Positions 59,770-64,000 of a stretch of DNA of 64,000 nucleotides are shown in pieces. Both the position numbers and the translations under genes were made by a program. Source of the stretch: Streptomyces sp. Je 1-332 (lineage in GTDB: Bacteria > Actinomycetota > Actinomycetes > Streptomycetales > Streptomycetaceae); NCBI RefSeq assembly GCF_040730185.1, contig NZ_CP160402.1:744001-808000 (forward strand), written 5' to 3'. Position 1 is the first letter of the stretch; each line of letters opens with the position of its first letter. Under the pieces are notes generated by a model. That model was not told where the DNA came from and did no database searches. It saw only the letters and a program-made list of their open reading frames with translations.

Positions 59770-60777
59770 ATGGCACGTCCGGTGTGGAGCGGGACCGTCA
59801 CGTTCGGCCTTGTCTCCCTGCCCGTCCAGATGTTCACCGCCACGGACAGCCACACCGTCCGCTTCCACCAGCTGCAGCGGGGCACGTCCGACCGGGTGCG
59901 CAACAAACGGGTGAATGAACGCACCGGCGACGAAGTAGGCCTCGACGACATCGTCAAGGCCTATGACGCCGGGGACGAGTACGTACTGATCGAGCCGGAC
60001 GAGCTGGACGACATCGCGCCGGGACGCTCCAAGACGCTGGAGATCACGGGCTTCGTCGATCTGGAGGAGATCGAGCCGATCTTCTTCGACAAGACCTACT
60101 ACCTGGGCCCGAAGGGCAAGGAGTACACCAAGGTCTACGCCCTGCTGGAGAAAGCCCTCGCCGAGGCGGACAGAGCCGGGATCGCCACGTTCGTGATGCG
60201 CAATCACCAGTATCTGGTCGCGGTGAAGGCCGAGGGCGGTCTCCTGACGCTGCACACCCTCCACTGGGCCGACGAGATCCGTGACCCGCGCGAGGAGATC
60301 GACGACCTGCCCGGGAAGACGAAGGTCACCGACCGCGAGCTGAAGATGGCACGCCAGCTGGTCGACACGCTCCGCATCGACTGGAACCCCGACGACTTCC
60401 ACGACACCTACCAGGAGCAGGTGGCCGCCCTCATCGACGCCAAGCGCAAGGGCGAGAAGGTCGAGAAGGCGGAGCCGCCCGCGGAGTCCACCAACGTCGT
60501 CGACCTCATGGACGCCCTGAAGGCGAGCGTGGACCGGGCGAAGAAGCCGGGAGGCTCGAAGAAGTCCGCGGCCTCGAAGAAGGCCGCAGGCTCGAAGAAG
60601 TCCGGGAGTTCCCGGTCCAAGAAGGCCGCAGGCACGAAGAAGGCGGACCTCGATGGACTGACGAAGGCCGAGCTCCACCGCCGGGCCGCCGACGCCGACA
60701 TCCCCGGCCGCTCGTCCATGAACCGGGACGAGCTGATCGAGGCTCTACGCGGCGTACGGCAGCCCAAGGCCTCCTAG
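59770..60777 (+). CDS. ku: Ku protein (NHEJ) with Lys-rich tail and SAP-like domain
   Basis: 335 residues. The bacterial Ku core (1-250) begins ARPVWSGTVTFGLVSLPVQMF and contains VDLEEIEPIFFDKTYYLGP. It is followed by an about 40-residue Lys/Ser/Gly tail (GSKKSAASKKAAGSKKSG, repeated) and a SAP/Rho-N-like DNA-binding segment (LDGLTKAELHRRAADADIPG). Ku binds double-strand ends and recruits LigD. No ligD is in the window. Extended lysine tails are known in mycobacterial and Streptomyces Ku and contact DNA. Confidence 0.95.
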   Translation: MARPVWSGTVTFGLVSLPVQMFTATDSHTVRFHQLQRGTSDRVRNKRVNERTGDEVGLDDIVKAYDAGDEYVLIEPDELDDIAPGRSKTLEITGFVDLEEIEPIFFDKTYYLGPKGKEYTKVYALLEKALAEADRAGIATFVMRNHQYLVAVKAEGGLLTLHTLHWADEIRDPREEIDDLPGKTKVTDRELKMARQLVDTLRIDWNPDDFHDTYQEQVAALIDAKRKGEKVEKAEPPAESTNVVDLMDALKASVDRAKKPGGSKKSAASKKAAGSKKSGSSRSKKAAGTKKADLDGLTKAELHRRAADADIPGRSSMNRDELIEALRGVRQPKAS

Positions 60778-60805: not shown

Positions 60806-61177
60806 TCACCCCTGGCAGAGGCAGAAGGGGTGTCCCGCCGGGTCGGCGTAGACACGCCACCCCCGCTTTCCGCCGTTGTCGTCGAGGTCGAGCGGTGCCG
60901 CCCCCACGGCGAGCACCTCGTCGTGCGCCTTCTCCATGTCGGTGACGGTGAAGTCGAGGTGCAGCTGCTGCGAATCCGACTCCGCCTGCGGCCACTTGGG
61001 CGGCCGGTGGTCCGGTGCGCGCTGGAAGGAGATGCGTGCGCCGCCCGGCACATACAGGTCGTACCAGTCCTCGTCGTACGGCCGGATCTCACCGCCGAGC
61101 ACGGCCTGGTAGAACCGGGCAAGTGGCTCGGGCTCCGGGCAGTCCAGCGCAACCAGGGTGTAGGTCGCGATCGCCAT
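60806..61177 (-). CDS. VOC-family (glyoxalase-like) protein
   Basis: 123 residues from ATG 61177. Two beta-alpha-beta-beta-beta modules: TYTLVALDCPEPEPLARFYQAVLGG and LHLDFTVTDMEKAHDEVLAVGA, ending RVYADPAGHPFCLCQG. It resembles the VOC protein at 35456-35854 in layout and ending. It is convergent with ku, with stops 28 bp apart. Function not assigned; members act as metal-dependent lyases, dioxygenases or binding proteins. Confidence 0.85.
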   Translation of the reverse strand: MAIATYTLVALDCPEPEPLARFYQAVLGGEIRPYDEDWYDLYVPGGARISFQRAPDHRPPKWPQAESDSQQLHLDFTVTDMEKAHDEVLAVGAAPLDLDDNGGKRGWRVYADPAGHPFCLCQG

Positions 61178-61233: not shown

Positions 61234-61791
61234 TCACCGTAAACCCGCCGCTTCTCCCGTGCCTGTCCCGTCGCCGCTCAGGCCCGCCGCGTCCCGCTGT
61301 CGCGAGACCGCACGCCGTACCGCATCGTCGACAGCGGGAAGCGCCGCCTCCAGGTCGCTGAAGACTACGTACTCGACCGTCGCCACCGCGTGCAGCCCGC
61401 GGACGAGGAACGCGTACTCCTTGCCCTCCTCGAGCAACAGCACGATCGGTTTCCCGAAGGCGCTGGCCCAGCCCATCTCTATATGCGTGCCGGGAGAGGC
61501 GGGGAGCCCGGGGAAGGCCACGAACACGTCGGCCTTGCGGATCTCCTCCTGGTCGAGCGGGGTGCATTGGGCGGGGGCCATCAGTTCGGCGCCCCATGCC
61601 TCACGGCGGTGTGCGTTGTGGACGCTGAACCCGTGCCCCTCGAAGTGCTCGATCAGGGAGGCGAAGGGTGCCCGCGTCCCCGACGGCATCTCGCCGGTGG
61701 CGGGATCGAGCAGCTGGAGGAAGGGTCCCGCGAGGAACAGGGTGTTGACGCCGAGTTCACCGGCGAGCTCGCGGGCGGGAGTCGTGGTCAT
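61234..61791 (-). CDS. Nucleoside 2-deoxyribosyltransferase-fold hydrolase (MilB-like)
   Basis: 185 residues from ATG 61791, overlapping the upstream gene by 4 bp (ATGA). The fold opens NTLFLAGPFLQLL, a phosphate-binding loop, and has PGTHIEMGWASAFGKPI where Glu105 is the usual catalytic nucleophile. In mildiomycin biosynthesis a member of this family (MilB) cleaves (hydroxymethyl)CMP to release the base. Here the upstream gene is a TS-fold enzyme, the same gene pair as milA/milB, so hydrolysis of a modified pyrimidine nucleotide is the favoured hypothesis. Confidence 0.78.
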   Translation of the reverse strand: MTTTPARELAGELGVNTLFLAGPFLQLLDPATGEMPSGTRAPFASLIEHFEGHGFSVHNAHRREAWGAELMAPAQCTPLDQEEIRKADVFVAFPGLPASPGTHIEMGWASAFGKPIVLLLEEGKEYAFLVRGLHAVATVEYVVFSDLEAALPAVDDAVRRAVSRQRDAAGLSGDGTGTGEAAGLR

Positions 61792-62789
61792 GCGGAGACC
61801 TCCTGGTCGGCAGCGGTACGGGGCCAGCGGCACAGCATCATCCGGCGGTACAGGGGCGGGAGTTCGTCGAGCAGCTCACGGTCCGTCAGTGGCTCGAAGG
61901 TCAGTTGACGGTGCAGCTCGAAGAGTCCGATCACGTCCTGCCAGTAGCGGGGCAGGTCGAGGGCGCGCAACGCGGTGGGGCCGAGCCGGAGCCGATCGGT
62001 GCGCAGTCGCGCCTCGATCCGCAGCACGTCGCGCACATGCGGCCAGTTGTCCCCCGCGGGCATCGCTGGGAACGGCTCCGGGTCGGTGTCGTCCGCGCCC
62101 TCGCGCAGGACCCGTTCCACAAGCGGGGCATCGCTGTCGTACACATGCAGGGAGCCCACCTGATGGACGTAACTCCCCACCTCGACACCCAACTGCCTGG
62201 CGAGCATCTCCAGGAGGAAGGTGAAGGAGAAGACGTCGCTCACCATGCCGCGGTAGGCGTCGTTGGCGCGCATGAAGCCGACCGCGTGCAGTCTCCCCTC
62301 ACGGAGCATGAACTGCAGGGCGAGGGTGCACGCGACGTCGATGTTGCCCGGTTCGCGCAGCTCGCCCGGGTGGAAGATCTGCACCACCGCGCGTTTGCTG
62401 TCCGGGTCGTCCGTCAGTACGTCGATGACGCTGCGCCACTGGTCGAGGCCTGTCCCCCGGTAGTCGAATATCCGTGGCCCATAGGCGGTGCCGGTCAGCG
62501 TGGCGCCGTCGGACGAGTACTTGCGCATGCTCGGCGCGTAGTGGGCGACGAGCTCCAGGTCGGCCGAGCCCGACAAATACCAGAGGGCTTCGGCGAAGTT
62601 GAAGACCAGGTTGGACCTGCGCCCCGGCAACGCGACATGGCGCTGCACGGGGTTCCGGACCAGGAAGCCGGCGCCCAGTCGCTCACGGCTGGGGAAGCCG
62701 CGCGGGGCGTTGCGGAACGCCGCGCCGAGATAGGTGCTGCGCAGCTCCGTCAGGTAGGCGTCCTCGACGGTTTCGTAGGTGCTGTGCAC
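61788..62789 (-). CDS. Thymidylate-synthase-fold enzyme with cytosine-type active site (MilA-like)
   Basis: GTG 62789 gives 333 residues. Recognisable TS landmarks: FAEALWYLSG (Glu67, equivalent of the TS general base), TAYGPRI, DPDSKRAVVQIF (phosphate Arg), DVACTLALQF with nucleophile Cys154, RANDAYRG (Arg174) and GSLHVYDSD (His215, Tyr217). The residue equivalent to E. coli Asn177, which reads uracil, is Asp185 here (GMVSDVF). An Asp at that position is found in dCMP/CMP hydroxymethylases, which read cytosine. I therefore infer a CMP/dCMP hydroxymethylase or similar C5-modifying enzyme rather than dTMP synthesis. It is 10 bp downstream of the methyltransferase gene. Confidence 0.8.
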   Translation of the reverse strand: MHSTYETVEDAYLTELRSTYLGAAFRNAPRGFPSRERLGAGFLVRNPVQRHVALPGRRSNLVFNFAEALWYLSGSADLELVAHYAPSMRKYSSDGATLTGTAYGPRIFDYRGTGLDQWRSVIDVLTDDPDSKRAVVQIFHPGELREPGNIDVACTLALQFMLREGRLHAVGFMRANDAYRGMVSDVFSFTFLLEMLARQLGVEVGSYVHQVGSLHVYDSDAPLVERVLREGADDTDPEPFPAMPAGDNWPHVRDVLRIEARLRTDRLRLGPTALRALDLPRYWQDVIGLFELHRQLTFEPLTDRELLDELPPLYRRMMLCRWPRTAADQEVSA

Positions 62790-62799
62790 GTGGCCCCCG

Positions 62800-63462
62800 T
62801 CAGTCCTTGTAGAAGCACTGGATGTACGCGTCACCCGAGGTGCCGTACGTGTACTCGGTGGTGTCGTACGCGGTGTACGGGTGGCGCTCCACGCGGATGG
62901 TGCGGAAGTGCTCGACGTACTGCCACCGCAGTTCGGGCTTGGTGCTGAAGAAGGGGATGAAGACCCCGCCGGGGCGCAGCGCGCGGACGACCTCCGGCAT
63001 GGTCTTGCGCCAGAGTTCCGCGTCCTTCCACACCTCCATGTCGAGCGCGGGGTCGAAGAACATGCCGTCGATGCTCTCCGTCTCGAGATCGAAGACACGC
63101 TGGAAGAAGTCGCCGCGTTCGATGGAGAGGGTTTCGGGGAGTTTCGGGTGCTGTTCGCGGAACAGGTCTTCGACCTCTCCGAAGAGTTCGAGGACCCGGT
63201 GGCTGCGGGTGACGGGGTGCTCGGCGATGCGCAGGGCCGAGAGACCGAGGCCGAGGCCCACCTCGTAGAAGTCCTTGCCGTGGCCGCAGAGCATGTCGGC
63301 GCTGGCCCACATCAGGTCGCGTTCCCAGGCCTGCATGGCCTGTTCGCCGCCGATGCTGAGGGTCAACTCGCCGTCGTGGTCGATGATTTCGATGTCGGGT
63401 GTGGGGGTCTTCTTCTCGGAGGACTTCTTCTCGGGGGTCTTCTTCTCGGGGGTCTTCTCCAT
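62800..63462 (-). CDS. Class I SAM methyltransferase, guanidinoacetate-methyltransferase-like
   Basis: ATG 63462 with AAGGACGG upstream gives 220 residues. The first 22 residues are Lys/Glu/Pro repeats (EKTPEKKTPEKKSSEKK). The motif I region DFYEVGLGLGLSALRIAEHP followed by RVLELFGEVEDLF matches the GAMT-type sequence EVGFGMAIAAS/ECNDGVF (by recollection). Later motifs are SIDGMFFDPALDMEVW and RALRPGGVFIPFFSTK. GAMT-like enzymes methylate guanidino groups, so a guanidino-type acceptor is possible. It is likely co-transcribed with the downstream TS-fold and hydrolase genes. Confidence 0.78.
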   Translation of the reverse strand: MEKTPEKKTPEKKSSEKKTPTPDIEIIDHDGELTLSIGGEQAMQAWERDLMWASADMLCGHGKDFYEVGLGLGLSALRIAEHPVTRSHRVLELFGEVEDLFREQHPKLPETLSIERGDFFQRVFDLETESIDGMFFDPALDMEVWKDAELWRKTMPEVVRALRPGGVFIPFFSTKPELRWQYVEHFRTIRVERHPYTAYDTTEYTYGTSGDAYIQCFYKD

Positions 63463-63514
63463 GACAACCGTCCTTCGTCGGGTGAGTGCCGGGGTGGTGG
63501 TCGTGGCGCCCTCT

Positions 63515-64000
63515 TCAGCCATGGCCCGGGACGACGCCGAAGTGCCGCCGGGCGGTGGAGACAGCGAGGTCCTGCACGGCGAAAACCGTGAAGTAGTAGG
63601 CCTGCGGGGCGGTGTCGGGTGCGAACCGCACCTTGAACACGACGTCCCGCGCGTGCTCGTCCGAGGCGCGGACCTTGACCTTCGCCGGTTCCACGGTGGT
63701 GTCGTCACGCAGATAGCTCGGCAGGAACAGACCGAGGCGTACGGGGCCGGGACGGGCCGCGGTGAGGGAGGCGCGCACTTCGAGCACGCCGCCCTGCGCC
63801 ACCTCGTCGGCCGCGTGGGCGAGGAGCTGCGGCGCGTCGGGAACGCGGAAGGTGACATCGCCGCAGCGCATGCACACCACGCAGAGGGTGTCGAGGATGT
63901 GCGGCAGGAGCCCGCGCCTTGCGAACTCCTGGGCGGGACGCCCGCAGTGGCAGACGACCTCGTGGACAGCGGGGTCCAGTGAGCTGCGGTCACCGAAGTG
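63515..64000 (-). CDS. Zinc-ribbon protein, 5' end beyond window
   Basis: The frame is open from the right edge to a stop at 63515 (161 residues visible). Near the edge are CHC (VVCHCGRP) and about 25 residues later CVVCMRCGDV, a plausible zinc site. The rest has beta-rich segments (VLEVRASLTAARPGPVRLGLF, VVFKVRFAPDTAPQAYYFTVFAV). I do not recognise a named family. It precedes the methyltransferase gene by 52 bp on the same strand and could be part of the same operon. Confidence 0.65.
   Translation of the reverse strand, partial: HFGDRSSLDPAVHEVVCHCGRPAQEFARRGLLPHILDTLCVVCMRCGDVTFRVPDAPQLLAHAADEVAQGGVLEVRASLTAARPGPVRLGLFLPSYLRDDTTVEPAKVKVRASDEHARDVVFKVRFAPDTAPQAYYFTVFAVQDLAVSTARRHFGVVPGHG

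Follow-up and report, generated by a model that had tools for sequence, protein, structure and literature searches.

The closest described systems to the locus reported here are the blasticidin S (bls) cluster of Streptomyces griseochromogenes, the mildiomycin (mil) cluster of Streptoverticillium rimofaciens, and the bacimethrin BcmA/BcmB-type pairs, in which a cytidine monophosphate (CMP) hydroxymethylase lies beside a hydrolase of 5-hydroxymethyl-CMP (hmCMP). In addition, Streptomyces setonii A83094 reportedly yields both 5-hydroxymethylblasticidin S and blasticidin S, going by the title of Larsen 1989. No gene cluster for 5-hydroxymethylblasticidin S was found in the open-access literature, which is weak evidence of absence because that literature mostly leaves out subscription papers. 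Here we analyzed a window of 64,000 nucleotides from Streptomyces sp. Je 1-332 (genome C1:744001-808000; genome of 8.27 Mb, single contig), at the end of which four minus-strand genes encode a hydrolase, a thymidylate synthase (TS)-fold protein, a methyltransferase, and part of a zinc-ribbon protein. Read together with the flank past the window end (stretch L002, C1:803001-823000), these genes very probably belong to a complete blasticidin S-type peptidyl-nucleoside cluster with an added milA gene, and this cluster likely makes both 5-hydroxymethylblasticidin S and blasticidin S. Each part is known; what is new, as far as the open-access literature covered here goes, is the pairing of a bls cluster with milA and the hydrolase residue found beside that milA. 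The locus would provide a genetic basis for 5-hydroxymethylblasticidin S, a compound known since 1989, and a natural experiment in which one base-modifying enzyme has been added to an antibiotic pathway.

The four reading frames lay exactly where the initial annotation had placed them, with a 10-bp gap upstream of milA and a 4-bp overlap with the hydrolase gene downstream, and the fourth gene was cut by the window end. Extension past 64 kb, which that annotation had proposed, brought in seven further complete genes on the same strand, completing a bls-type cluster in a run of eleven genes and bearing out its suggestion of a cytosine nucleoside antibiotic pathway. From the first gene transcribed to the hydrolase gene, the intergenic spacings were -8, -13, -4, -4, -4, 67, 112, 52, 10, and -4 bp, with start codons chosen by overlap and homology; given such short or overlapping spacings, the run likely forms one or few transcripts.

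We then compared the cluster with other Streptomyces loci. Relatives of the 626-amino-acid protein encoded by the fourth gene occurred in 20 genomes (its own included) of 392 in the genus, and stretches of 20 kb, or up to the contig end, were fetched around those of the 19 other genomes. The ten non-milA genes were found in the same order in all nine loci with a full-length relative at least 70% identical (L053-L061, 71-78%), none of which had milA at the locus. Another locus, L088, was cut by the contig end and retained three cluster genes in the same order, and in eight of the 19 the relative (41-48%) occurred in other settings. L060 is the S. griseochromogenes locus: its hydrolase was 100% identical to the BlsM chain over 161 of 163 residues, its 626-amino-acid protein matched at 99.7%, and both published blsL primers (from PMC5572114) were found in it with zero mismatches. 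The ten genes compared share order and orientation between L060 and the Je 1-332 cluster, at 51-83% identity by tblastn, whereas L060 lacks milA and, at the deciding position of the hydrolase described below, shows Met where the window protein has Leu. In L053-L061 and L088, the gap between the aligned parts of the methyltransferase and hydrolase genes was 45-139 bp, and milA fills this slot in the window. We take the neighboring genes to bear the letters blsD to blsM, of which BlsE, BlsL, and BlsM alone were anchored by the analysis. Separately, L062 (G193:C1:4268101-4288100) held a rearranged, diverged blasticidin-like cluster with two DegT genes, a BlsE-like protein (73%), a cytosylglucuronate (CGA) synthase (48%), and a hydrolase (38%) whose deciding residue is Val.

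Because ten of the eleven genes match the S. griseochromogenes cluster in order, the locus points to antibiotic biosynthesis and not to defense. The initial annotation had also considered a self-contained nucleotide-modifying or defense module, and the pairing of a TS-fold protein with a methyltransferase does recall the base modification seen in phages; the TS-fold protein matched PHROG families of thymidylate synthase (best 8.6e-45), the CHAT-like fold predicted in the fourth protein is also used in defense (Craspase), and PADLOC returned a weak match of the methyltransferase to mad2 (6e-8). However, a full antibiotic cluster occupies the same gene run, the TS-fold protein carries residues for the ribonucleotide CMP, and PADLOC at E up to 1 gave no match for the other three of the four proteins. 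This module was rejected once the cluster past the window had been seen, and we regard it as exceedingly improbable.

The TS-fold protein (333 amino acids, GTG start; window 61788..62789, genome 805788-806789, minus strand) matched MilA (5jnh) in the PDB at 5.9e-128, compared with 1.4e-20 for the top-scoring thymidylate synthase, and the Pfam TS model (PF00303) matched it over the cut-off at 1.5e-22. In the alignment, the MilA catalytic residues Cys155, Glu68, His216, and Tyr218 corresponded to identical residues at Cys154, Glu67, His215, and Tyr217, as did Lys133, Ala176, and Asp186 at Lys132, Ala175, and Asp185. Published work on MilA connects Lys133 and Ala176 with the preference for ribose, and Asp186 with cytosine (PMC5175136). 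Asp185 also stood opposite the Asn of both thymidylate synthase chains displayed in the PDB-search alignments, in agreement with the initial annotation, which had named Cys154 as the nucleophile, placed Asp185 at the TS Asn position, and pointed to the same change in dCMP/CMP hydroxymethylases. We assign the protein as a putative CMP 5-hydroxymethylase of the MilA type, predicted to convert CMP to hmCMP. It is the sole PF00303 match in the genome; a ThyX gene is located elsewhere, which makes a housekeeping thymidylate synthase unlikely, and that candidate was rejected on this ground and on the residues for CMP.

The hydrolase (185 amino acids; window 61234..61791, genome 805234-805791, minus strand) matched BlsM (5vto) at 2.4e-63 and MilB (4jem) at 1.5e-57, and the Pfam model Nuc_deoxyrib_tr barely exceeded its cut-off (8e-7). 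In the alignment, the catalytic Glu105 occupied the position of MilB Glu103, and Leu25 occupied that of MilB Arg23. The BlsM-type motif F-L-(G/A)-(G/A)-P-F-X, where X is neither Arg nor Lys, reads FLAGPFL in this protein, which lacks the Arg or Lys that marks an hmCMP-selective hydrolase at position 23 of MilB. At this deciding residue the hydrolase is, by its sequence, of the BlsM type and not of the MilB type. The initial annotation had recognized the milA/milB pair of mildiomycin; an N-glycoside hydrolase of the MilB/BlsM family is indeed present, but it is of the BlsM type, and the pair belongs to a bls cluster plus milA. The residue suggests a BlsM-type N-glycosidase that would act on both CMP and hmCMP and so give a mixture of two antibiotics, with blasticidin S expected alongside 5-hydroxymethylblasticidin S because the hmCMP-selecting Arg or Lys is missing.

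Outside the fetched loci, MilA homologues were found in the Streptomyces strains NPDC058471 (93%), NPDC015131 (86%), NPDC000594 (69%), and NPDC053048 (68%). For NPDC015131, NPDC000594, and NPDC053048, a protein resembling the 626-amino-acid one and a hydrolase were listed from contigs of the same size (533252, 221885, and 492026, respectively); no such link to bls-type proteins was made by contig match for the NPDC058471 MilA. The milA gene of the window appears to have been kept: it is intact, retains the active-site residues compared, lies tightly within the run of genes, and has its closest relatives (93% and 86%) in two other strains, the second with bls-type proteins on a contig of equal length.

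Several observations weigh against a cluster that makes both antibiotics. First, milA was present in only one of the eleven bls-type loci (the window, L053-L061, and L088) drawn from the 20 genomes with the 626-amino-acid protein. Second, no MilA at least 68% identical was found outside the window genome in three further draws of 394, 393, and 353 genomes, which overlap each other and the 392-genome set, so that their union is smaller than their sum; six new weaker matches (56-58%) from the 394- and 393-genome draws all combined MilA with a hydrolase and had no other bls gene. Third, the three genes of NPDC015131, NPDC000594, and NPDC053048 are taken to share a contig from protein tables, not from DNA. 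Fourth, the R23L change in MilB cut its activity to very low levels (PMC4081090). The last point, the Leu at the hmCMP-reading position, and the approximately 3-fold preference of BlsM for CMP over hmCMP (kcat/KM of 675 and 205 per M per s; PMC4081090) would fit a cluster that makes blasticidin S alone, in which milA is present, its product is not channelled, and the hydrolase prefers CMP. We consider this outcome unlikely, given the state of milA described above and the finding that BlsM does hydrolyze hmCMP (PMC4081090). The R23L objection is further tempered by the hydrolases of the ten milA-less bls-type loci, which naturally carry Leu in seven cases, Met in two, and Thr in one. Since MilB R23L is so low in activity, Leu alone is no predictor of hydrolase rate.

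No further bls cluster with milA turned up in the genomes searched. Members of the TS family were matched in 46 of the 392-set genomes (own included). The neighborhoods of 13 others were fetched, and these contained a MilA-like gene, a hydrolase gene as well in four, and no other bls gene; the other 32 matches had identities of 39-44%, with neighborhoods outside the comparison. In the MilA tree, the window protein and the four Streptomyces strains formed one clade (5 rows; SH-like approximate likelihood ratio test, SH-aLRT, 98), apart from mildiomycin MilA. In the tree of the 626-amino-acid protein, the four milA-bearing clusters fell in two branches, and the starred branches forced at least two changes; shuffled labels did as well in 170 of 500 trials, with milA status unknown for 70 of the 84 rows. 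Both trees were built by a quick method. The 626-amino-acid proteins of the hosts are not one clade, and the trees do not show that milA arose once, within one branch of bls clusters; transfer and loss of milA are not distinguishable. Either milA joined a cluster whose hydrolase retained its BlsM character, or other clusters have lost milA.

These hydrolases make a published rule testable, namely that all MilA-linked MilB homologues carry Arg or Lys at position 23, with other residues in nine unlinked homologues (PMC4081090). Arg or Lys was found in none of the four milA-linked bls-type hydrolases: besides the Leu of the window protein, the residue is Leu in NPDC015131 and Met in both NPDC053048 and NPDC000594. 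We then turned to 80 named MilA loci, the best 80 of 93 confirmed ones, 57 with a hydrolase match in the fetched stretch and 23 with none. The residue in those 57 was Lys in 49, Phe in four, Tyr in two, Leu in one, and Trp in one. The rule thus fails in the window and in eight of the 57 named loci, where the DNA fetched around those eight shows no further bls gene, and it is not general. The same eight loci led us to reject the idea that only bls-type clusters pair milA with a hydrolase lacking Arg or Lys. The eight loci are actinobacterial (L089, L090, L091, L092, L097, L098, L099, and L111), and in L092, which has Trp, the hydrolase gene lies ~7 kb away from milA. We infer that the 49 Lys-type loci are bacimethrin loci; BcmB-type hydrolases have Lys and, unlike the window cluster, occur without blasticidin genes. 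Lys-type MilA-MilB pairs were also seen in Pseudoalteromonas, Prodigiosinella, Xenorhabdus, and Photorhabdus (L144, L154, L156, L160, L163, and L164), and at a guess these are possibly bacimethrin-like.

The methyltransferase (220 amino acids; window 62800..63462, genome 806800-807462, minus strand) reached the cut-off of no Pfam or NCBIfam model. Its match to guanidinoacetate methyltransferase (GAMT, 3orh) in the PDB, at 4.8e-06, agrees with the guanidino-methylating family named by the initial annotation, and the protein is 83% identical to the product of the S. griseochromogenes-locus gene that holds both blsL primers exactly. We conclude that it is a predicted BlsL-type guanidino N-methyltransferase; the resemblance to GAMT is explained by the low GAMT similarity of BlsL itself, noted in published work (PMC5572114).

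In the pathway that we propose from homology, MilA would convert CMP to hmCMP, and the BlsM-type hydrolase would release 5-hydroxymethylcytosine from hmCMP and cytosine from CMP. CGA synthase (435 amino acids; genome 816370-817677; TIGR04467, 1.4e-150), encoded by the first gene transcribed, would join the base and glucuronic acid, followed by decarboxylation by the BlsE-type radical S-adenosylmethionine enzyme (328 amino acids; 815391-816377; TIGR04466, 3.3e-195) and addition of the 4'-amino group by the DegT enzyme (392 amino acids; 812079-813257; Pfam DegT over the cut-off). Arginine 2,3-aminomutase (403 amino acids; 813254-814465; TIGR04468, 6.8e-198) would make beta-arginine, and the ATP-grasp ligase (414 amino acids; 810838-812082; LAL_C2 over the cut-off, the ATP-grasp models themselves below it) would couple it. 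BlsL would methylate the guanidine, and the major facilitator superfamily (MFS) protein (420 amino acids; 809508-810770; Pfam MFS_1 over the cut-off) would export the predicted product, the 5-hydroxymethylblasticidin S of S. setonii A83094 together with blasticidin S. A CGA-synthase-related protein (313 amino acids; 814462-815403; TIGR04469, 7.7e-99) completes the flank, in which all genes lie on the minus strand; all four matches to NCBIfam equivalog models exceeded their cut-offs, and Pfam Radical_SAM did so twice among the cluster proteins.

A mildiomycin-like or arginomycin-like antibiotic would account for milA (58% identical to the mildiomycin gene product) and a MilB-family hydrolase, which the mil cluster has in common with the window, and TIGR04467 is named for hydroxymethyl and plain forms. 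Against such a product, which we judge very unlikely, stand the arginine 2,3-aminomutase, a methyltransferase of the BlsL type, and a gene order as in bls. The window hydrolase has Leu where MilB has Arg23, mildiomycin MilA falls outside the clade of bls-type MilAs, and the window cluster has beta-arginine and guanidine-methyl genes where mil has the side-chain genes proposed in PMC11784345. MilH, MilI, MilM, and MilN (PMC11784345) were not recognized among the eleven genes by family scan, no sequence search being made for them.

Beyond the 3' end of the cluster lie a Ku gene (window 59770-60777; PF02735, 1e-48) and a Glyoxalase_6 gene (window 60806-61177; PF18029, 7e-26), both probably outside it. 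None of the window flank genes (Ku, FAD/Rieske, LysR, FAH, and glyoxalase-like) was matched in any of the ten further bls-type loci, and since at least 7.7 kb had been fetched past the hydrolase gene in all ten, the cluster is bounded at this end. Past the CGA synthase gene, only 0.1-1.1 kb was fetched in nine loci and none in L088, which does not settle the membership of LysR.

The zinc-ribbon protein of the initial annotation proved to be no small protein: the portion in the window (63515..64000), with a likely zinc ribbon (Cys482/484/508/511) and a beta-sandwich, forms the C-terminal part of the 626-amino-acid protein (genome 807515-809395, minus strand), most of which, with the N-terminal part at genome C1:808001-809395, lies beyond the window. 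The N-terminal part is predicted to adopt a caspase/gingipain/CHAT-like (clan CD-like) fold; the C-terminal beta-sandwich accounted for the bulk of the Foldseek rows, and a second examination gave the matches to gingipain and CHAT. His222 and Cys282 were invariant in all 28 alignment rows and may form a dyad. The protein had no Pfam or NCBIfam match and no convincing sequence relative in the PDB (best E 0.056), and no open-access paper was found giving it a role, again weak evidence of absence with subscription papers mostly left out. We propose it as a candidate for the leucyl transfer step of the blasticidin S pathway, a biosynthetic step without an assigned enzyme. More speculatively, and with doubt about the combination, milA would have entered bls clusters whose hydrolase gained no Arg or Lys, giving a co-produced two-base mixture against the linkage rule, and the caspase/gingipain-fold zinc-ribbon protein, present in every bls-type cluster fetched, would be the leucyldemethylblasticidin S synthetase; its protease fold and His-Cys dyad would then serve an acyltransferase in self-protection against the antibiotic. 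In L066, L067, L068, and L069, distant relatives of the protein directly adjoin an ATP-grasp gene whose product is 43-48% identical to the cluster ligase, and none of the remaining blasticidin genes occurs in the DNA fetched there; these pairs possibly serve other amide-bearing products.

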